From Coriobacteriaceae bacterium EMTCatB1 (GTDB taxonomy: Bacteria; Actinomycetota; Coriobacteriia; Anaerosomatales; Anaerosomataceae), in the NCBI GenBank assembly GCA_001950395.1, contig BDLO01000001.1, positions 62,001 to 126,000 on the forward strand: a DNA stretch of 64,000 bases, written 5' to 3'. The notes under the pieces were generated by a model. That model worked only from the letters and a program-made list of their open reading frames with translations, had not been told where the DNA came from and made no database searches. Shown in pieces: positions 3,081-33,546 of the stretch (position 1 is the first letter of the stretch; each line of letters starts with the position of its first letter). The position numbers and the translations under genes are program-made.

Positions 3081-3233
3081 TCAGTTGAGCGGCGGTCCCC
3101 GCGTCCGAGGGGGGAGGGAAGATGCGGGTCGCACTGCTCGTCACGTACTATAGCAATATCCGTGCCACTATGCAAGCGGCGGGGAATAAGATTCACAAAG
3201 ACGGACGCCGGTGAGCGATCGCGAGGTGCTTCG

Positions 3234-4181
3234 ATGGAGAAGACGACACTGCCATGGAGCGGTCAGCACGTCTGTCGGGTGGCGCTCGGAACGTGGTCGA
3301 TGGGCGGCTGGATGTGGGGTGGTGCTGACGAGCGAGCTGCGCGTGCCACGATTCAGCGTGCACTCGAGATCGGCGTCGACTTCGTGGACACGGCGCCCGT
3401 GTACGGCTTCGGGCTCTCAGAGCGGCTGCTCGGTGAGGAGCTTGAGGCGCTTGGGGTCCGAGACCGCGTGGTGATCGCGACGAAGTGCGGGTTGGTCTGG
3501 GACGAGCGGCAGGAGCCGTGGCGCGACTCGTCTCCCGCGAGCATCCGCCGCGAGGTCGAGGCGTCGCTCGAGCGGCTCAAGACCTCGTGGATCGACCTGT
3601 ACCTAGTGCACTGGCCGGACGAGGGCACGCCGTTCGAGGAGACGGCTGCGGCGCTTCAGGCGCTCGTGGACGAGGGGATCGTGCGGGCGGTCGGCGTCTG
3701 CAACTACTCGGTCGAGCAGATGGAGCGGTTCCGTCTCGGCGGCCGCTTGGACGCCGCACAGTTCCGCTACAACCTCTTCGAGCCGGCGAACGAGCCGCTG
3801 CTGCGGTACGCCCGCGAGCGTGGTCTGGTCTCCATGGCGTACAGCCCGCTCGCCCGAGGGCTTCTCACGGGAGCGATGCGGCGAGACCAGGAGCCGACGG
3901 ATGCGGCGAGGCGGGCTCCGATGTACCACGGCGAGTCCTACCAGCGGCACCTCGATGCCGTTGAGCGGCTCGACAGCTTGGCTCAAGCGCGCTACGGGCG
4001 CCGCGTCATCCATCTTGCGGTGCGCTGGCTGCTCGACCAGCCGGGGATGTCGGTGGTGCTGTGGGGCGCACGGCGGCCGGAGCAGCTCGACGCCGTTGAC
4101 GGCGTCTGGGGATTCTCTCTGGACGACGACGCCTTCCGCGAGATCGGCAAGATCGTGTCAGGGCTCGAAGACCCGCGTTAG
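3234..4181 (+). CDS. Aldo/keto reductase
   Basis: NAD(P)H-dependent oxidoreductase of the aldo/keto reductase superfamily, a cytosolic TIM barrel of 315 residues. The ORF extends back to 3009 through the pstB terminator, which cannot be coding; the ATG at 3234 after a GCGAGGTG purine stretch is the sensible start. The catalytic tetrad can be assigned as Asp52 and Tyr57 (DTAPVYG), Lys84 (ATKCG) and His126 (LVHWPD). The substrate cannot be told from sequence. The stop codon overlaps the stop of the convergent exporter gene (shared TTAG), so no room is left for a terminator between them. Confidence 0.9.
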   Translation: MEKTTLPWSGQHVCRVALGTWSMGGWMWGGADERAARATIQRALEIGVDFVDTAPVYGFGLSERLLGEELEALGVRDRVVIATKCGLVWDERQEPWRDSSPASIRREVEASLERLKTSWIDLYLVHWPDEGTPFEETAAALQALVDEGIVRAVGVCNYSVEQMERFRLGGRLDAAQFRYNLFEPANEPLLRYARERGLVSMAYSPLARGLLTGAMRRDQEPTDAARRAPMYHGESYQRHLDAVERLDSLAQARYGRRVIHLAVRWLLDQPGMSVVLWGARRPEQLDAVDGVWGFSLDDDAFREIGKIVSGLEDPR

Positions 4182-13956: not shown

Positions 13957-14400
13957 ATGGGCGAGTTCCCGCGACCGGCTCTGACCGCCGATGCGGCGCT
14001 CGTGCGCCACGGCGACACTGGTTGGGAGATCTTGCTCGTCAAACGCGGTCGTCCGCCGTTCGCGGGACGCTGGGCCCTCCCGGGCGGGTTCGTCGACGAA
14101 TACGAGCCTCCCGAAGACGCGGCACGTCGTGAGCTCGAAGAGGAGACGGGGATCCGCTTCGACGGCCCGCTCGCTTTGGTGGGTGTCTACGGCGGTCCTG
14201 GCCGCGACCCGCGAGGCTGGACGGTGTCTGTGGTGTTCGCGGGGATCGCGGACGCGGACGACCTCGGTGCGGCCACTGCAGGAGATGACGCCGACGACGC
14301 CGCGTGGCACCCGTTGGAATCCGTCCCAGATCTTGCATTCGACCACGCGGACATCGTCTCCGACGTCAGGCGGTGGCTCGGCCGGGAACAGCGGGTATGA
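13957..14400 (+). CDS. NUDIX hydrolase
   Basis: Cytosolic 147-residue pyrophosphohydrolase of nucleoside-diphosphate-linked compounds. The NUDIX box is complete (GGFVDEYEPP...RRELEEETG, about residues 43-65). The ATG at 13957 has GGGGAGGAG seven bases upstream, better than the longer ORF at 13939. The N-terminal VxLVxRGxPPFxGxWALPGGFV pattern resembles ADP-ribose pyrophosphatase-like members, but the substrate remains open. Confidence 0.92.
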   Translation: MGEFPRPALTADAALVRHGDTGWEILLVKRGRPPFAGRWALPGGFVDEYEPPEDAARRELEEETGIRFDGPLALVGVYGGPGRDPRGWTVSVVFAGIADADDLGAATAGDDADDAAWHPLESVPDLAFDHADIVSDVRRWLGREQRV

Positions 14401-14438
14401 TAGGTGGCAAGCCACGGGCTCGCTTGAGGGAGGGTGCC

Positions 14439-16622
14439 ATGAGTGCTGCGGCGATTCGGATTCGGACGCTTGCGGCGGCTGTCGTCGTCGCGCTTCTCGC
14501 GGGCGTCTGCACGCCCGTGACGACGGCGCACGGAGGCGTGCTGAGACCTGCGTTGCGGCCTCTGGCGGCGGACGACGACGTACCTGGTGTTCCGCTCGAC
14601 GAGTACCCGCTCGTCTCCCGCACCGTCACGGGAACGCTCGACGCGGTGCCGATCTCGCTGCCGCCCGAGGACGCCATCGACCTGTTCTCCGTCTACCTGG
14701 CTCCCGGCGAGCAGATCCAGGCGCGGCTGAGCGCCACTCCTGGCACTGATTTCGACCTGTACCTGTTCAGCCCGGACTCGGTCAGCTTCATCGCGGCGAT
14801 CGAGGTGGCGAGCTCCATCACGGCAGGCACGTCGAGCGAGAGCATCTGCTACACGGCGAGCGAGCGGTACGGGGCCGGCCGGTACTACCTCGCCGTGGTG
14901 ACGTGGAACTCTGAGGGCTCCTATCAATTGGACTGGCACGTCTCGGGTCGCTCCGACGGCAACGTGCCGGGGCGGGCGCTGATGAGCAGCTCCGTGACGG
15001 GCGTCGTGGATCCCGCCACTGACCGGGACGACGTGTACGCGCTGCCGCTCGCTCCAGGGCAGAGCGTGACGTGCACGCTGACCGCGGACAGCCCCGCCGA
15101 CACGGTGAAGCTGGCGGTCTACCCGCCGATGTGGGACAACGGCGGGGTGCTTGAGCCCGTGCTGGACGTGTATCACGCCGGCGACGCCGTGGTCGACCAA
15201 GGGTCTGCGGTCACGCTCAACGTGAACGTTCCCGGCGATCGCGGTGGCACCTGGTACTTCGACGTGCGGGCCGTCTCACCAGACACCGCGTATACGCTCG
15301 AGTGGGAAGTCGCGAACCCGGACGTGCCGGGCGCGCCGCTCGATAGCGGCGTCGCTACCGGGGCGCTGACGGCGAGCACGGTGTGGATGTTCCCCGTGCG
15401 GTGGGGGCAGCAGGTGACGGGCTCTCTGTGGACGAGCCCCACGCCGGCGGCGGCCTCCGCGTGGCTGTTCGCTCCCGGCACGACGAGCGTCGCGGACACG
15501 ACGGGGGCGGCGTGGTCGTCGAGTTGGAGTGCGTCTGACCAGCCGAAGCGATTCTCGTGGTCGGTTCCTTCCGAAGCGGCAGAAGGGATCGCGTTCCTTC
15601 GCGTCGACGCTCCGGCAGCCCCGCTCTTCGAGCAGCGCATCTGGAAGTCCGTGACGTCCCGGCGGCTGTACGGCGCCGACCGCTACGCCACCGCAGTGCG
15701 CATCTCTCGGTCCGGCTTCCGTTCGGGGTCCGACGTCGTCGTCATCGCGAGCGGCGAGAACTTCCCCGACGCTCTTTCCGCCTCGGGGCTGGCGGGGGCG
15801 TACGATGCGCCGCTCCTGTTGGTCCGCAAGGCTGAGCTTTCCGACGTCGTGCAGCAGGAGATCGACCGTCTGGCGCCGTCACGGGTGTTCGTGGTGGGCG
15901 GTCCGGGCGCCGTTTCCGACACGGTCGTGGCGTCGATCGCGGCGAGACCGAGCGTGCGTGTGGTGACGCGCGTGAGCGGCGCTGACAGGTACGAGACCTC
16001 TGCGGAGGTGGCTCGTCGCGTCGTGTCCCGGCTCGGACCGGACTTCGACGGCGTCGTGTACGTCGCGCGAGGAGACCTGTTCCCTGACGCATTGGCGGTC
16101 TCGCCTCTCGCGTGGCGAGCCCGTCGTCCAGTGCTGCTCACGGCTCCAGGCGCGCTCTCGGACAGCGTAAGAGCGGTTCTGCACGACCTATCGCCGTCTG
16201 AAGCGATCGTCATCGGTGGCACGGGAGCAGTATCCAGTGCTGTGTTCGACGAGGTCGACGGGCTGGCCGATACGGCACGCCGTGTGTGGGGTCTTGACCG
16301 CTACGCGACCGCGGCTGCCGTAGCCGAAGACGGCGTCGAAACGGGCGTCGCTGCGCCCTCGTTCGTCGCGATCGCCACGGGAGCGAACTTCCCGGACGCG
16401 CTTGCGGGGGGCGCTCTGGCTGGCGCAGAGGGCGGCGTGCTGCTCCTCTCCGCGCCGTCTGCCCTGTCGTCTCCAACCCAAGCGTTCCTCGCTGGCTCTC
16501 GGGAAGGGATAGAGGCGTGCCGGCTGCTCGGCGGGACAGGCGCGCTGGCAGAGACGGTCCGCACGGGCGCCGACACCGCGCTCGCCGTGACGTGGCCGGA
16601 CCACCCTCCGGCGTGGTGGTAA
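14439..16622 (+). CDS. Secreted protein with three CWB2 cell-wall-binding repeats
   Basis: A 727-residue exported protein. A signal peptide (basic start, then LAAAVVVALLAGVCTPVTTAHG) is followed by three beta-rich segments resembling bacterial pre-peptidase C-terminal (PPC) domains (about 35-400), each starting with a VPGxPL-type phrase. From about residue 407 there are three tandem CWB2 repeats with the hallmarks GADRYATAV, NFPDALSA and VVGGPGAVS and their variants. CWB2 units anchor proteins non-covalently to anionic wall polymers. No enzymatic domain is evident, so this may be an S-layer-like or adhesive wall protein. The ATG at 14439 follows GAGGGAGGG; the longer ORF at 14304 overlaps the NUDIX gene. 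Confidence 0.86.
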   Translation: MSAAAIRIRTLAAAVVVALLAGVCTPVTTAHGGVLRPALRPLAADDDVPGVPLDEYPLVSRTVTGTLDAVPISLPPEDAIDLFSVYLAPGEQIQARLSATPGTDFDLYLFSPDSVSFIAAIEVASSITAGTSSESICYTASERYGAGRYYLAVVTWNSEGSYQLDWHVSGRSDGNVPGRALMSSSVTGVVDPATDRDDVYALPLAPGQSVTCTLTADSPADTVKLAVYPPMWDNGGVLEPVLDVYHAGDAVVDQGSAVTLNVNVPGDRGGTWYFDVRAVSPDTAYTLEWEVANPDVPGAPLDSGVATGALTASTVWMFPVRWGQQVTGSLWTSPTPAAASAWLFAPGTTSVADTTGAAWSSSWSASDQPKRFSWSVPSEAAEGIAFLRVDAPAAPLFEQRIWKSVTSRRLYGADRYATAVRISRSGFRSGSDVVVIASGENFPDALSASGLAGAYDAPLLLVRKAELSDVVQQEIDRLAPSRVFVVGGPGAVSDTVVASIAARPSVRVVTRVSGADRYETSAEVARRVVSRLGPDFDGVVYVARGDLFPDALAVSPLAWRARRPVLLTAPGALSDSVRAVLHDLSPSEAIVIGGTGAVSSAVFDEVDGLADTARRVWGLDRYATAAAVAEDGVETGVAAPSFVAIATGANFPDALAGGALAGAEGGVLLLSAPSALSSPTQAFLAGSREGIEACRLLGGTGALAETVRTGADTALAVTWPDHPPAWW

Positions 16623-16631
16623 GACCGTCGT

Positions 16632-16660
16632 TGACACGGCGCTGCGCTGAGCGTAAACTG
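16632..16660 (+). promoter_or_regulatory. Consensus promoter of the methionine operon
   Basis: TTGACA (16632-16637), a 17-base spacer and TAAACT (16655-16660), close to the sigma-70/sigA consensus. The expected transcript start near 16667 gives a leader of about 360 bases that contains the T-box. Confidence 0.8.
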
Positions 16661-16666
16661 CCGCAT

Positions 16667-17007
16667 CAACCTCATACGCGCCGTTGATGGGGATGAGTAC
16701 GCGGGACCGGTAGGTCCGCCAGAGAGCCGGGGCAGCTGGAAACCGGCGTCCGAAAGCCCGCGGAACATGGCCCCAGAGGCATCCGGAGGAAACGCTCGCG
16801 GTGAGCGGAGTAATGCCGGACGGAAGCCCCCGTTATCGCAGGCTTCGTGAGCATCGGACCCCCTCGGCTGACTCCCGCCGGCCGAGCGGAGAGACCACCG
16901 GTCCCGTGCTCGAGATGAGGCCGCGTGTTGCGCGGCGAAGTCGGGTGGTACCGCGAAGGCCCAGGCGCCTCTCGCCCTGACAAGGACTGTCGGGCGGGAG
17001 GCGTTTT
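16667..17007 (+). promoter_or_regulatory. T-box riboswitch, specifier ATG (methionine), with terminator
   Basis: Leader RNA that senses uncharged tRNA and controls read-through into the methionine operon. The T-box sequence GGGTGGTACCGCG is at 16943-16955. Stem I can be drawn: TGGGG pairs with CCCCA, then the specifier loop with AGTA (16697-16700) on the 5' side and GAACATGG on the 3' side, then CGCGGG (16701-16706) with CCCGCG (16757-16762). The distal AGAGAGC and GGGCAGCTGG motifs are present. The triplet in specifier position is ATG (16767-16769) followed by G, so tRNA-Met is the expected ligand. A terminator (12-bp stem CGCCTCTCGCCC with one G-U pair, then TTTT) ends at 17007, so control is by transcription antitermination. 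Confidence 0.92.
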
Positions 17008-17026
17008 GCATAGCAGGAGGTGCGGG

Positions 17027-18199
17027 ATGGGAAAGACCTGGGACGAGATCAACGAGCGGATCTCCTCCGGCTCGGCGGTGGTGCTGACCGCCGAGGAGTT
17101 CGCGGAGCTGGCAGCGGACGTCGGCGTGAAGGAAGCAGCCAGGCGCGTCGACGTCGTGACCACGGGGACCTTCGGGCCGATGTGCTCCTCTGGCGTCGTG
17201 CTCAACTTCGGGCACAGCGACCCGCCCATCCGTATGAGCCGCATCACGCTCAACGACGTGGAGGCCTACGGCGGTCTTGCAGCCGTCGACACGTTCCTCG
17301 GGGTGACGCAGCAGAGCGCGTCGCGAGGACTCGAATACGGCGGTGCCCACGTGATCGAGGACTTGATCGCCGGAAAGGCGGTGCGGCTGAGAGCGTGGAG
17401 CTCGGGGACGGACTGCTATCCGCGAACGGAGATCGACACCTGGGTGCGGCTGGAGGACCTGAACCAAGCGTACTTCTTCAACCCGCGCAACGCGTACCAG
17501 AACTACGCGGTGGCGGTGAACTCTTCCGATCGCGTCCTTCACACCTACATGGGCACGCTGCTCCCGCGGCTCGGGAACGCCACGTACTGCTCGGCCGGCG
17601 CGCTCTCGCCGCTGCTGAACGACCCGGCCTACCGGACCATCGGCGTCGGAAGCCGCATCTTCGTCGCTGGCGCTCCGGGATTCGTCGCGTGGGAGGGCAC
17701 GCAGCACAACCCGAACCAGCAGCGAGATGAGCACGGTGTGCCAGTCGCTCCAGCGGGCACGCTCGCGGTCATCGCGGACCTCAAACGTGCTTCGACGCGC
17801 TTCTTCGCTGCCGCCTCGATGACGGGGTATGGCGTGAGCGCCTTTGTGGGCATCGGCGTCCCGATACCGGTGCTCGACGAGGACGTCGCGCAGACGCTCG
17901 CGCTCACCGACGCCGACATCTCGGCCACGGTGTTCGACTACGGGGTCCAACGGCGAAGCCGACCCGCGCTCGGTCGCGTCACCTACGCAGAGCTGCGGTC
18001 AGGGGCCATCGAAGTGCAGGGCAAGAAGGTGCCAGCAGGCCCGATCAGCTCGCTCAAGAAGGCCAGGGAGATCGCTGCGGAGCTCAAGCGCTGGATCTCC
18101 GAGGAGAGGTTCACGCTCGCCGAGCCCCTCAAGCCGCTGCCGCAGCCGGGCGAGCAGGGCGTCAAGCCGCTCGAGATCCGTTCTGAGGAGGCGATATAG
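17027..18199 (+). CDS. Homocysteine biosynthesis protein (HcyBio, DUF39)
   Basis: A 390-residue member of the HcyBio family (formerly DUF39), shown in methanogens and some bacteria to act with a NIL/ferredoxin partner in making homocysteine from aspartate semialdehyde and a sulfur source. Matching blocks include TTGTFGPMCSSG, which carries a conserved Cys, HVIEDLIAGK and ATYCSAGALSPLLND. AGGAGG lies six bases before the ATG. It is the first gene after the Met-specific T-box, and its partner ferredoxin follows directly, so the operon context strongly supports the assignment. Confidence 0.92.
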   Translation: MGKTWDEINERISSGSAVVLTAEEFAELAADVGVKEAARRVDVVTTGTFGPMCSSGVVLNFGHSDPPIRMSRITLNDVEAYGGLAAVDTFLGVTQQSASRGLEYGGAHVIEDLIAGKAVRLRAWSSGTDCYPRTEIDTWVRLEDLNQAYFFNPRNAYQNYAVAVNSSDRVLHTYMGTLLPRLGNATYCSAGALSPLLNDPAYRTIGVGSRIFVAGAPGFVAWEGTQHNPNQQRDEHGVPVAPAGTLAVIADLKRASTRFFAAASMTGYGVSAFVGIGVPIPVLDEDVAQTLALTDADISATVFDYGVQRRSRPALGRVTYAELRSGAIEVQGKKVPAGPISSLKKAREIAAELKRWISEERFTLAEPLKPLPQPGEQGVKPLEIRSEEAI

Positions 18200-18607
18200 A
18201 TGCCGCGCAAACGTCTCGACCTCACCTTCCCGCCTAGGCAGGCGACGAAGCCGATCACCTACCACCTCGTGAAGGACTTCGACCTGGTGCCGAACATCCT
18301 GCGCGCGCAGATTCACCCAGGTCAGGAAGGCCGCATGGTGCTGGAGGTGACCGGTCGCAAGGAGGACTTCGACGCCGGCATCGCGTTCCTGGAATCCGAA
18401 GGCATCGTGGTGCGGCCTGCCGCGACCGACATCTGTCTAGACGAAGACAAGTGCGTGCTCTGCGGCCTGTGCACCGCCGTCTGCCGCCCAGGGGCGCTGA
18501 CGCTCAACGGCGCGGGCGACGAGCTCGTCTTCGACAAGGACAAGTGCGTGTACTGCGAGGCGTGCGTGGTAGCCTGTCCGCGACGGGCTATAACGCTGAC
18601 GTTCTAA
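18200..18607 (+). CDS. NIL-domain ferredoxin, partner of HcyBio
   Basis: A 135-residue protein with an N-terminal NIL domain (about 15-75; a ligand-binding ACT-like fold also found in methionine transporters) and a C-terminal 2x[4Fe-4S] ferredoxin (CVLCGLCTAVC and CVYCEACVVAC). In methanogens the equivalent protein (MA1822 type) is required with HcyBio for homocysteine synthesis, probably donating electrons for sulfide incorporation. It starts at the base following the HcyBio stop, so the two are co-translated. Confidence 0.9.
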   Translation: MPRKRLDLTFPPRQATKPITYHLVKDFDLVPNILRAQIHPGQEGRMVLEVTGRKEDFDAGIAFLESEGIVVRPAATDICLDEDKCVLCGLCTAVCRPGALTLNGAGDELVFDKDKCVYCEACVVACPRRAITLTF

Positions 18608-18617
18608 GCCAGGGGTG

Positions 18618-18965
18618 ATGACCGTGCCGCAGCTCAGATTCTTGCAGGTCTTCGTGCTGCTCGTGCTCGTCTCGCTCGTGCTTGCCGTTCTTGCCCTGGT
18701 TGCAGGAGCGCGAGCCGGCTCGCGTGCCGGCAAGAGGGTGTTGCGCGCCAGCGTCCTGATCCTGCTGGCGTCGCTCGTGGGTTGCGCGGCGTGGGGCGCC
18801 GCATCGGGAGAGATTCGCGTCTTTTGGAGCGAGCTCGGCCTGGACGCGGTCGTGCAGATCGGTGCGTTCGTGGCGATCGTCTACTTCACGGCTCACAACT
18901 TCACGTCGCGCTACCTCGATGACAGGGCCGTCCAGGAGAGGAAGGAGAGCGCGGAGGATGCCTGA
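18618..18965 (+). CDS. Small membrane protein in methionine operon
   Basis: About 115 residues with three hydrophobic stretches (VFVLLVLVSLVLAVLALVAG near the start; VLRASVLILLASLVGCAAWG; VVQIGAFVAIVYFTAH) and a charged C-terminus. I do not recognise the family. The start could be GTG 18615, ATG 18618 or GTG 18624. It sits between the NIL-ferredoxin and metH and overlaps metH by eight bases, so it is co-regulated with methionine synthesis; a transport or scaffold role is possible but only by context. Confidence 0.7.
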   Translation: MTVPQLRFLQVFVLLVLVSLVLAVLALVAGARAGSRAGKRVLRASVLILLASLVGCAAWGAASGEIRVFWSELGLDAVVQIGAFVAIVYFTAHNFTSRYLDDRAVQERKESAEDA

Positions 18966-21348
18966 CATCGCAGCACGGCTCGGCCGCGAAGTGCTCGTCG
19001 TCGACGGCGCGATGGGCACGATGCTGCAGCGCGCCGGCATACCGCCGGAGCAGCCGGGCATCCAGCTCAACCTGATCGCCCCGGAGGTCGTCGCCGACAT
19101 CCACCGGAGCTACGTGCTCGTGGGCGCGGACTGCGTGACGACGAACACCTTCGGCGGGACGCGCCCGAAGCTCGCTCAACACGGCCTCGAGGGCTTGCTC
19201 GAGCAGGCCAACCGGGCCGGCGTGCGACTGGCTCGCGAGTCCGGTGCTCAGCACGTGCTTGCCGACGTCGGGCCGACCGGCTTGGTGATGGAGCCCTTGG
19301 GGAGCGCGACCTTCGACGAGGTGTACGCGCACTTCTTCGAGCAGGTCCGGGCGCTCGCTGCCGAATCGCCTGACGCCATCCTCATCGAGACGATGACCGA
19401 TATCGCCGAGGCGCGCTGTGCGGTGCTCGCAGCGCGCGACGCCTGCGACCTTCCCGTGTTCGTGACGGTGACGTTCGGGCGCGGCGGCGTTATGGACCTC
19501 TCGGGAACGCCACCCGAAGCGGCCGCCGTGATCCTGGAAGCTGCCGGCGCATCGGCGGTCGGCGTCAACTGCGGGCTCGGGCCAGCAGAGATGCTACCGC
19601 TGGTGGAGCGCATGGCGCGCGCCACGGCGCTTCCCATCATCGTGCAGCCCAACGCAGGGATCCCTCGCGTCGAGGGTGGCGTCACCGTGTTCCCGGGCAC
19701 GGCTGAGGAGATGGGGGCCTACGCCGCGAAGTTCGTCGAGGCAGGCGCGTCCGTGGTGGGGTCCTGCTGCGGCTCGACGCCCGCGTTCACCGGTGCGATC
19801 GTCGACGCCGTCAAGGAGCTGCCCGTGTCGAGGAGGCCAGGACGCGGCCGCGGAGTGACGCTCGCGAGTCCGCGCCGGGTGCTCAGCATCGGGGGCGGCC
19901 GCCCGATGGCGGTCATCGGCGAGCGGATCAACCCGACAGGCAAGAAGGCGCTCGCTCAATCGTTGCGCGAAGGGTCGATGGCGATCGTGCGGCAGTTCGC
20001 TGCGGAACAGGCGGCTGCGGGGGCTCATGCGCTCGACGTGAACGTGGGGGCCGCTGGCGTCGACGCGCGCACGGCCTTGCCTGCGGCGGTGCTTGCGCTG
20101 TCGGGCTCCTGCGACTTGCCGCTCGTGCTCGACACGACGGATCCGGCGGCGCTGGAAGCGGCTCTCAAGCTGTACCCAGGCCGCGCGCTCATCAACAGCG
20201 TGAACGGCGGCGAGGAGTCGATGGGTGCGGTGCTCCCGCTCGCCAGGAGATACGGTGCCGCCGTGTTGGTGCTCGCGCTTGACGGCGACGGCATCCCAGG
20301 CACGTCCGAAGGTCGGGTGCGAGTCGTGGAGCGCGTGCGTGAGCACGCTCTTGCCGCCGGTCTGTCGGACGACGACCTGCTCGTCGACTGCCTCGTGCTC
20401 ACTGCCGCCTCCGACCCGGGATCGGCGCGGGTGACGCTCGATGCGCTCCGCGAGGTGAAGGCGAGATGGGGTCTTGCCGCCGTGCTCGGCGTGAGCAACG
20501 TCAGCCACGGCCTCCCTGGGCGCTCGACTCTGAACGCCACGTTCCTCGCGATGGCCGCAGGTGCGGGGCTCGACGCCGCCATCGTCAATCCCGGCGACGC
20601 CGAGGTGATGCGAGCGGTCGCGGCGGCCGACGCGCTGCTCGGCCGCGACGAGCGCGCGGAGCACTGGGTCGCTCTCGCGTCCGAGCGCTCGGGGCAGGAC
20701 GAGCCCGCGGCCTCCAGCGAAGAGGAGCGGCTCGCGCTCGCCGTCGAACGCGGCGACGCAGACGGCGCCCCGCAGCTCGTCGAGCAGCTGATCGCTCGCG
20801 GCTGGCCGGCTGCGCAGCTGATCGCCGACGTGCTGACGCCGGCGATCCAGCGTCTCGGAGACGCCTACGGTCGCGGCGACGTGTTCCTGCCGCAGCTGAT
20901 CGCGGCCGCTGATGCGATGAAGGCAGCGGTCGAGACCGCGAAGCGCCACTTGCCGCCTGGAGCGGGGGCGTCGCTCGGTCGCGTGGCGTTCGGCACGGTG
21001 AAGGGCGACATCCACAGCATCGGGAAGGACATCTGCATCTCGATGCTCGAGAGCCACGGTTTCGCGGTCGACGACCTCGGTGTCGACGTGAGCGCGGATC
21101 GTTTCGCGCAAGCAGCGCGTGACGCGGACGTGGTGTGCGCGTCTGCGCTCATGACCACGACGTTGCCTGCGATGGAGGAGGCCGTCCGCGCCGTTGTGGC
21201 GACAGGCACGCCGGTCCTCGTCGGCGGAGCGGTCGTCACCGAGGAGTACGCGCGTTCGATCGGAGCAGGGTACGCAGACGACGCTCCCGGCTGCGTGGAG
21301 GCCGTCCGGAAGGCCGTGGCGAGCCGCAACGCCGCAAAGGAGAGCTGA
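18958..21348 (+). CDS. metH: Cobalamin-dependent methionine synthase, short form
   Basis: Transfers the methyl group of methyltetrahydrofolate via cobalamin to homocysteine. 796 residues contain, in order, the homocysteine/zinc barrel (1 to about 310; zinc cysteines in GVNCGLGP and GSCCGSTP), the pterin-binding barrel (about 320-575; GERINPTGKK), the B12 cap and the B12 domain (about 590-796) with the axial-histidine motif DIHSIGKD (near 683). The C-terminal AdoMet-dependent reactivation domain of E. coli MetH is missing, as in several anaerobes. The ATG at 18958 has GGAGG just ahead. The 3' end leads into metV and metF, which supply methyl-THF. Confidence 0.95.
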   Translation: MPDIAARLGREVLVVDGAMGTMLQRAGIPPEQPGIQLNLIAPEVVADIHRSYVLVGADCVTTNTFGGTRPKLAQHGLEGLLEQANRAGVRLARESGAQHVLADVGPTGLVMEPLGSATFDEVYAHFFEQVRALAAESPDAILIETMTDIAEARCAVLAARDACDLPVFVTVTFGRGGVMDLSGTPPEAAAVILEAAGASAVGVNCGLGPAEMLPLVERMARATALPIIVQPNAGIPRVEGGVTVFPGTAEEMGAYAAKFVEAGASVVGSCCGSTPAFTGAIVDAVKELPVSRRPGRGRGVTLASPRRVLSIGGGRPMAVIGERINPTGKKALAQSLREGSMAIVRQFAAEQAAAGAHALDVNVGAAGVDARTALPAAVLALSGSCDLPLVLDTTDPAALEAALKLYPGRALINSVNGGEESMGAVLPLARRYGAAVLVLALDGDGIPGTSEGRVRVVERVREHALAAGLSDDDLLVDCLVLTAASDPGSARVTLDALREVKARWGLAAVLGVSNVSHGLPGRSTLNATFLAMAAGAGLDAAIVNPGDAEVMRAVAAADALLGRDERAEHWVALASERSGQDEPAASSEEERLALAVERGDADGAPQLVEQLIARGWPAAQLIADVLTPAIQRLGDAYGRGDVFLPQLIAAADAMKAAVETAKRHLPPGAGASLGRVAFGTVKGDIHSIGKDICISMLESHGFAVDDLGVDVSADRFAQAARDADVVCASALMTTTLPAMEEAVRAVVATGTPVLVGGAVVTEEYARSIGAGYADDAPGCVEAVRKAVASRNAAKES

Positions 21349-21349
21349 C

Positions 21350-22021
21350 GTGATCATCACCAAACGGAGAGAGTGGCAGCGAGTGCTCGACGACCTGGGT
21401 TCCGTCGAGGCCAGGCGCGTGTTCGTCGTCGGGTGCGGCGAGTGCGCGACGGCCGCCCACACGGGCGGCGAGCCGGAGGTCGCCGAGGCGTGCGAGCGGC
21501 TGGCTGCGAGCGGCTTCGAGGTGACCGGCTCGTGCGTGCCTGAAGTCACGTGCCACGCCGGCGGCGTACGGCTCGAGACTCGCAAGAACGCAGCAGCCAT
21601 ACAGGACGCCGACGCCCTCGTCGTTCTCGCGTGCGGAGCTGGCACGCAGACGGTGGCGGATGCTGTGGCGAAGCCCGTCTTTCCCGGGCTCGAGTCGGCG
21701 TTCCTCGGGACGACCGTGCGCCACGGCGTGTTCGAGGAGCGCTGCCAGATGTGCGGGGAGTGCGTCCTTGACGCCACAGGTGGCATCTGCCCGGTCACGG
21801 CGTGTCCGAAAGGCATGCTCAACGGGCCGTGCGGCGGCATGTGGGACGGCATGTGCGACGTCCTGGACGACCGCGAGTGCGTGCACGTGCGGATCCGAGC
21901 CCGGCTGGCGGAGCAGGGCCGGGACGTCGCTCGTACGCTGCCCCCGAAAGACCACTCGAAGAAGCTCAAGCCCGCTCGGCTGAGCGTGAAGGAGCACAGA
22001 CCCGACGGGAGCGTGCGATGA
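21350..22021 (+). CDS. metV: MetV, zinc/Fe-S-type partner of methylenetetrahydrofolate reductase
   Basis: A 223-residue protein matching the MTHFR C-terminal-domain (MetV) family of acetogens and other anaerobes. Cysteines are grouped in VVGCGECATAAHTGG, VPEVTCHAGG, CQMCGECVL and TACPKGMLNGPCGG, which suggests metal or Fe-S binding. MetV forms a complex with MetF and lets it use donors other than NADH. GTG at 21350 follows AAGGAGAG. Its last four bases overlap metF (ATGA). Confidence 0.92.
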   Translation: MIITKRREWQRVLDDLGSVEARRVFVVGCGECATAAHTGGEPEVAEACERLAASGFEVTGSCVPEVTCHAGGVRLETRKNAAAIQDADALVVLACGAGTQTVADAVAKPVFPGLESAFLGTTVRHGVFEERCQMCGECVLDATGGICPVTACPKGMLNGPCGGMWDGMCDVLDDRECVHVRIRARLAEQGRDVARTLPPKDHSKKLKPARLSVKEHRPDGSVR

Positions 22022-22890
22022 GCCGGCTCCGAGAAGCCCTCGAGCGAGGCGAGTTCGTCATCACGGGCGAGATCGCCCCGCCGCGCGGAAGCGACGTCTC
22101 TGCGATGCGCGAGACGATGGCGCTCGTCGGTCCGCTGTGCCACGCGCTCAACATCACGGACAATCAGGGCGCTTCGCTCCACATGTCGAGCCTGGGCGCG
22201 TGCCTGGTGGCGCTCGAGATGGGGTTCGAGCCGATCTTCCAGCAAACGTGCCGCGACCGGAACCGGCTCGCCCTGCAATCAGACCTCATGGCCGCGTGGG
22301 CGCTCGGCATCGAGAACGTCCTTATGGTGACGGGCGACGACCCGCGGAGCGGCGACCACCCGCAAGCGAAGGGCGTCTTCGACGTCGACTCGACGCAGCT
22401 TCTTCGCATCGCCAAAGACATGAACGAGGGCAGGGACATGCAGGGCCGTCCGCTTGCTGGCGGCACGGGGTTCTACCTGGGCGCCGCCATGTTCCCTGAA
22501 GCCGAGCCGTGGGACGCGCAACTGGCTCGCACCGTCGGCAAGATCGAGGCGGGCGCCCGGTTCTTCCAGACACAGGCCGTCTTCGACCTTGAGAAGCTGG
22601 CGCGTGCGGTGGATGCTCTGCACGCGCACGGCGCGAAGGTCATCGCTGGCGTGCTCTTCTTGCGCAGCCCGCGCGTCATCGACTTCGTGAACGAGCACCT
22701 CGCCGGGCTGAGGGTCCCCGATCACGTCGCGAGACGAATCAAGAGCGCTCCTGACCCGCTCGAGGCGGCGATCGACCTTGCCGTCGAACAGGTGGCTGCT
22801 ATCCGCGAGATCGCCGACGGAGTCCACGTCATGCCGCTCGGTCTCGATGGCCGCGTGCCCGAGGTCTTGGAGCGGGCCGGCGTGCTTTGA
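22018..22890 (+). CDS. metF: Methylenetetrahydrofolate reductase, MetF
   Basis: Reduces 5,10-methylene-THF to 5-methyl-THF for MetH, and in acetogenic or related metabolism for the methyl branch. 290 residues, FAD-dependent TIM barrel. VITGEIAPPRGSD at the N-terminus holds the catalytic glutamate, and NVLMVTGDDPRSGDHP and the C-terminal GGTGFYLGAAMFPE and RFFQTQAVFD are typical. The start is the ATG of the ATGA overlap with metV; the longer ORF is a shadow. Last gene of the methionine operon. About 150 bases of non-coding DNA follow, with only a weak 6-bp hairpin (GCGAGC/GCTCGC at 22921-22946). Confidence 0.94.
   Translation: MSRLREALERGEFVITGEIAPPRGSDVSAMRETMALVGPLCHALNITDNQGASLHMSSLGACLVALEMGFEPIFQQTCRDRNRLALQSDLMAAWALGIENVLMVTGDDPRSGDHPQAKGVFDVDSTQLLRIAKDMNEGRDMQGRPLAGGTGFYLGAAMFPEAEPWDAQLARTVGKIEAGARFFQTQAVFDLEKLARAVDALHAHGAKVIAGVLFLRSPRVIDFVNEHLAGLRVPDHVARRIKSAPDPLEAAIDLAVEQVAAIREIADGVHVMPLGLDGRVPEVLERAGVL

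Positions 22891-29429: not shown

Positions 29430-33546
<4,117 letters not shown>

Follow-up and report, generated by a model that had tools for sequence, protein, structure and literature searches.

An RNA switch appears to turn on a homoserine-free methionine operon in a strictly anaerobic actinobacterium, Coriobacteriaceae bacterium EMTCatB1, as judged from its genome sequence. A T-box leader with an AUG specifier very probably senses uncharged tRNA-Met and antiterminates transcription into the genes for HcyBio, NIL-ferredoxin, MetH, MetV and MetF, with tRNA binding, antitermination and the physiological response all being predictions. Methionine T-boxes are a known type of regulator, but their association with Actinomycetota and with the HcyBio pathway is, as far as the literature was searched, unreported.

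The T-box leader and its operon

The unit lies on the forward strand at positions 16631-22890 of the window, that is, the whole stretch of 64,000 nucleotides that was analysed, and consists of a promoter, a leader of about 360 nt and six genes. Its features, and one related gene further downstream, are the following (coordinates, strand, feature, basis):

16631..16659, +, promoter TTGACA-17-TAAACT, sigma-70 type (motif scan; counterpart in relatives)
16680..16780, +, T-box stem I with S-turn AGUA strand (RF00230 alignment; covarying helices)
16721-16726, +, AG bulge of stem I (RF00230 alignment)
16767..16769, +, specifier codon AUG, within GAAC-AUG-G at 16763-16770 (RF00230 alignment, relatives, register comparison)
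16782..16820, +, stem II with AGGAA/AGUAA internal loop (RF00230 alignment; covariation)
16821..16835, +, stem IIA/B element CGGAAGCCCCCGUUA (RF00230 alignment; near-invariant among relatives)
16849..16911, +, stem III, GAGCAUCGGACC...GGUCCCGUGCUC (pairing of the arms kept in most of the 37 leaders; visual reading)
16940..16981, +, antiterminator GUCGGG/CCUGAC, 7-nt bulge UGGUACC, GCGA/UCGC (38/38 leaders)
16943-16955, +, T-box motif GGGTGGTACCGCG (sequence)
16963..17007, +, intrinsic terminator, U-run 17004-17007 (folding; 38/38 leaders)
17027..18199, +, HcyBio (DUF39), homocysteine-forming enzyme (PF01837, 492 bits, 1e-147)
18200..18607, +, NIL-domain ferredoxin with two 4Fe-4S motifs (PF09383, PF00037)
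18615..18965, +, small hydrophobic protein of 116 aa, between NIL-ferredoxin and MetH
18958..21348, +, short B12-dependent MetH (PF02574, PF00809, PF02607, PF02310)
21350..22021, +, MetV-type partner of methylene-THF reductase (PF12225, MetV C-terminal domain)
22018..22890, +, MetF, methylenetetrahydrofolate reductase (PF02219, MTHFR)
29430..30158, +, COG2122 homologue, separate from the T-box operon; third gene of the DUF39 pathway to homocysteine

The leader extends from about 16666 to 17026 and reads as a full-length, transcription-attenuating T-box. The promoter claimed in the preliminary description is present, being the sole sigma-70-like site in 16400-19000 (one observed against 0.3 expected from shuffles), and a comparable TTGAC-type site with a spacing of 17 or 18 is found in 34 of the 36 relatives' leaders with enough upstream sequence, 14-21 nt upstream of the scanned end near stem I. 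The Rfam T-box model RF00230, the covariance check that the same description had proposed, matches 16674-16982 over model positions 1-219 of 219 with E 2.2e-13 in the 601 nt searched (1.6e-13 when run over the whole 1.84-Mb genome), a match seen in E-value mode, its 63.1 bits lying under the gathering score of 93. At the gathering threshold Rfam returned no match in the whole window, a false negative that follows from this difference in score.

Stem I, the T-box motif and the U-tailed terminator are likewise all where they had been described, with a tail of only four residues (UUUU, then GCAU). The antiterminator bulge carries UGGU (16946-16949), complementary to the ACCA 3' end of tRNA, and the antiterminator 3' strand is at the same time part of the terminator 5' arm, so that the two structures overlap. 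The terminator region is a strong fold (z -4.1), and when the region is folded alone the terminator is more stable than the antiterminator, which fits the requirement for a default-off T-box. A simple terminator scan did not report the 16963-17007 hairpin because its stem is bulged. The Shine-Dalgarno sequence AGGAGG (17015-17020) lies past the terminator, which ends 7 nt upstream and leaves it uncovered.

From these elements the following course of events can be proposed. RNA polymerase would start a few nucleotides past TAAACT and transcribe stem I, whose AUG specifier would pair with a CAU anticodon while the elbow of the tRNA would be gripped by the distal part of the stem. An uncharged tRNA would then pair through its free ACCA end with UGGU of the antiterminator bulge, the GUCGGG/CCUGAC antiterminator would form, the terminator would be blocked, and HcyBio, NIL-ferredoxin, MetH, MetV and MetF would be transcribed; with a methionine-charged tRNA, the default terminator would halt transcription before the operon. 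Homocysteine, which would come straight from aspartate semialdehyde plus sulfide, and methyl-THF would thus be supplied only when translation is short of methionine, with metK predicted to stay under its own SAM-I-like leader.

Pfam bears out the earlier assignment of the HcyBio, NIL-ferredoxin, short MetH, MetV and MetF genes; the chemistry ascribed to these enzymes is predicted. The HcyBio residues Cys53 and Cys130 show no variation across 65 homologues. The small hydrophobic protein has no Pfam or NCBIfam match and is found by sequence (tblastn) in only part of the relatives, while the order HcyBio, NIL, MetH, MetV, MetF is kept in them. A Pfam search of MetH gave no match to the reactivation domain PF02965; a DUF4445/RACo-type protein encoded elsewhere in the genome could reactivate the short MetH, by analogy with the role described in PMC5764234. 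The view that the T-box unit holds the whole route needs a small correction, since the COG2122 homologue lies about 6.5 kb downstream and the supply of aspartate semialdehyde is also outside. Neither this homologue nor the small hydrophobic protein figured in the preliminary description. This homologue is 43% identical to the COG2122-like protein of a Bacillota HcyBio locus (L074) and scores 265 bits against NF003323, whose cut-off is 271. A search of the genome for the classical homocysteine route, which covered the gamma-family PLP enzymes (PF01053), left no evident cystathionine-synthase or O-acylhomoserine-sulfhydrylase-like gene, the best PF01053 match (35.5 bits) being an aminotransferase.

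A large open reading frame (14304-16622), whose C-terminal part resembles what we take to be cell-wall-binding repeats, lies directly upstream, with the T-box on one side and a NUDIX-like gene on the other. In two related loci, L014 and L055, the NUDIX-like gene directly precedes HcyBio.

Conservation among the Anaerosomatales

Including the window's own, 38 distinct leaders were collected from Anaerosomatales (Coriobacteriia), 37 of them with a complete stem I. The comparison of related leaders suggested in the preliminary description finds the AUG, the covarying helices and the antiterminator/terminator pair all conserved: GAAC-ATG-G is kept in 37/37 distinct complete leaders and the UGGU bulge in 38/38, and the antiterminator and terminator both fold in each of the 38, with the six-pair A1 helix always complete. 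A compensatory antiterminator change is seen in L061 and L062 (ACCGCG...CGCC to ACCACG...CGTC). In 30 leaders, 96.6% of the cells of the named stem I/II/IIA/B structure are paired, a value that falls to 35-45% when partners are slid. Pairs changed on both sides in stems I and II number 10 against 3.8 in shuffles, and cells changed on both sides 33 against 9.7, counts that understate the stem I GGNC/GNCC helix, which the MAFFT alignment misregisters.

Which tRNA and which mechanism

That the specifier is ATG, as first read, stands after a search with covariance models for another codon in the slot: the Rfam model and the new covariance model both place AUG there, and it aligns with the AUC, CUG and UGG slot of the other T-boxes of the same genome, namely those of ileS (GAAG-ATC-A, Ile), ilvD (GAAC-CTG-G, Leu) and trpE (GGAA-TGG-G, Trp). 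The stretch GAACATGGCC includes both CAT and TGG, and a specifier one base over would call for tRNA-Trp (UGG) or tRNA-His (CAU), a reading that we consider extremely improbable. In the leaders of other families AUG is constant while C, G or T precedes it and G, A, T or C follows it (GATG, TATG, ATGA, ATGT, ATGC), which excludes the CAU and UGG registers. Moreover, the UGGU bulge fits A73, whereas tRNA-Trp has G73, to which the UGGC bulge of the trpE T-box corresponds, and the downstream genes are methionine genes. The Trp and His registers were rejected on the flanking-base variation and the discriminator base.

The AUG codon nevertheless leaves more than one candidate ligand. Three CAU tRNAs are encoded in the genome, putatively an elongator (L127), an initiator (L142) and an Ile2-like tRNA (L119), all with A73-CCA, where A73 matches UGGU. 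Since the elongator and the initiator have the same anticodon and the same discriminator base, neither specifier nor bulge can separate them. It may be, though we think it doubtful, that the same switch, like the metICFE leader of S. aureus, senses mainly initiator tRNA-fMet and reports translation initiation capacity. In S. aureus, the met leader has a strong affinity for initiator tRNA and a weak one for the elongator, and binding survived a change of the AUG specifier (PMC3771891), which means that the specifier alone is no proof of which tRNA-Met is sensed; on the other hand, no tested feature of the present leader favours the initiator. A broader and rather unlikely proposal is that the sensor of anaerobic Actinomycetota responds to initiator tRNA-fMet, coupling both homocysteine synthesis and the methyl branch of folate metabolism to the initiation of translation, while SAM would control SAM synthesis only, and that the AUG stem I elements of families f39, f55 and f69 that lack UGGNACC would signal in another way.

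For an attenuation switch responding to tRNA-Met, transcriptional control is supported because the antiterminator/terminator pair is conserved in 38/38 leaders. Class II T-boxes, which act on translation, have been described on actinobacterial ileS (PMC1262725), and the preliminary description noted that actinobacterial T-boxes are better known in this form; in this genome, however, the ileS and trpE T-boxes also end in terminators, so that the transcriptional kind is the norm for this lineage. A translational action of the present leader is very improbable, given that the hairpin competing with the antiterminator, conserved in 38/38 leaders, is a strong U-tailed terminator that leaves AGGAGG uncovered, and this mechanism was rejected on anatomy. 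Loss of the element is seen nearby in the tree, with fragments in L065, a leader without IIA/B and stem III in L227 and none in L055 and L014, yet decay into a non-functional T-box is hardly credible for the leader in the window, which has all its elements undamaged and whose structure shows covariation among relatives.

The T-box before ilvD in the present genome (L004:1501-1748; C1:133034-133281; Leu, CTG) carries GGGGTGGTGCTGAG where the Leu T-boxes of relatives carry GGGTGGTACCGCG, and from its sequence it looks degenerate.

Comparison with known methionine regulators

Staphylococcus and Lactobacillales are known to have methionine T-boxes (PMC3771891, PMC2494555, PMC3766115), whereas in Actinobacteria an early survey came upon neither classical T-boxes nor RNA structures ahead of methionine operons (PMC1262725). 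The metICFE-mdh leader of S. aureus (PMC3771891) is alike in being a transcriptional T-box with an AUG specifier and a tRNA-Met ligand (predicted here) before a methionine operon, and in standing where relatives use a SAM riboswitch. It differs in that it belongs to another phylum and controls a classical metIC-type route and MetE, together with CodY, while the present one precedes HcyBio/NIL-ferredoxin, MetH and MetVF in strict anaerobes. The Lactobacillales T-boxes (e.g. L. plantarum; PMC2494555, PMC3766115) share the Met-specific control of methionine synthesis, and theirs extends to transport; they have many targets per genome, whereas in Anaerosomatales the HcyBio operon is the only target found, and SAM-I-like elements persist at other places in the genome. 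The class II ileS T-boxes (PMC1262725) are tRNA-sensing leaders of the same phylum but mask the Shine-Dalgarno sequence, in contrast to the complete stem I/II/IIA/B with a terminator described above.

Outside Anaerosomatales, SAM-I occupies the same place in 6 of 12 HcyBio loci, mostly of Bacillota. The SAM-I-bearing Bacillota operons (L068, L069, L072, L074-L076) have the element in the same position before HcyBio, NIL-ferredoxin and further methionine genes but sense SAM, not charging. The single SAM-I-like element found in the present genome (G000) precedes metK, a gene named from its sequence, and scores 37.6 bits (E 4.8e-7 for the genome), below the gathering score of 44.4. With this element before metK and the Met T-box on the operon, there appears to be a division of labour in which SAM synthesis would be sensed by SAM and methionine synthesis by tRNA charging.

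The enzymes are those of the DUF39/NIL-ferredoxin/COG2122 pathway of Methanosarcina and Desulfovibrio, whose COG2122 and DUF4445/RACo-type proteins this genome also encodes; no mention of RNA regulation of the pathway was found in PMC5764234. Nor was any report of HcyBio/DUF39 with a T-box or riboswitch found among the papers open to the search, and single instances may already be listed elsewhere, for example in TBDB. The finding adds a phylum and a pathway to the Met T-boxes and, through an independent label at the level of the codon, links the poorly annotated DUF39/NIL-ferredoxin route with methionine. Moreover, one operon is found with two RNA sensors, for tRNA charging in Actinomycetota and for SAM in some Bacillota, which provides a natural test of why cells sense charging over SAM.

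Distribution in the class and phylum

A covariance model, R1, was built from 30 leaders. Among 300 Coriobacteriia genomes, it gave matches above 100 bits in 42, all of them Anaerosomatales, and these precede HcyBio wherever downstream sequence was inspected; the next-best matches are other T-boxes (such as ileS, ilvD and trpE), with scores of at most 86. R1 also matches no more than 1.5 kb upstream of 32 of the 86 HcyBio genes in 397 genomes of the phylum, and R1-positive genes occur in nine families (f1, f27, f39, f42, f45, f55, f56, f69, f75), while family f29 has none (0/29). Placed on the HcyBio tree, the presence or absence of the T-box takes at least six changes on well-supported branches to explain, which may reflect either several gains or an old element that was often lost.

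HcyBio loci without the T-box motif (L014, L055, L065, L066, L067, L113) gave no Rfam match, and neither did 20 further Actinomycetota HcyBio loci (f29, f30, f55, f56) at the gathering threshold. In L065 only scraps are left (about 3150-3265), which look like IIA/B and the 3' arm of the terminator, L227 has a leader truncated by the absence of IIA/B and stem III, and L055 and L014 show no leader remnants upstream of HcyBio. L065 and L227 may be read as snapshots of T-box loss before HcyBio.

Some HcyBio leaders of families f39, f55 and f69 have an AUG (GAAG-ATG-G) stem I, stem II, IIA/B and a terminator-like hairpin (L257, L261, L263, L265, L300-L302, L304, L305, L308-L310, L313, L319), and in these no canonical UGGNACC was found within 400 nt. 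Shortly before HcyBio, L261, L263, L265, L300-L302, L304, L308-L310, L313 and L319 carry a conserved element (AAGGTGGTGGTG...TATGGATCATG), one frame of which reads VVVxLVWIMxxLPR. The f39 frame VWIMxGLPR was rejected as a leader peptide, its start and stop not being conserved, and the element had no convincing Rfam match.

The specifier can also aid annotation, since the same label is found on three threonine-synthase-like genes elsewhere in the phylum. These AUG-specifier T-boxes precede genes of the threonine-synthase family (TIGR00260) in L314, L317 and L318 (genomes G513, G551 and G302), and the genes are perhaps mis-annotated methionine-pathway enzymes using O-phosphohomoserine.
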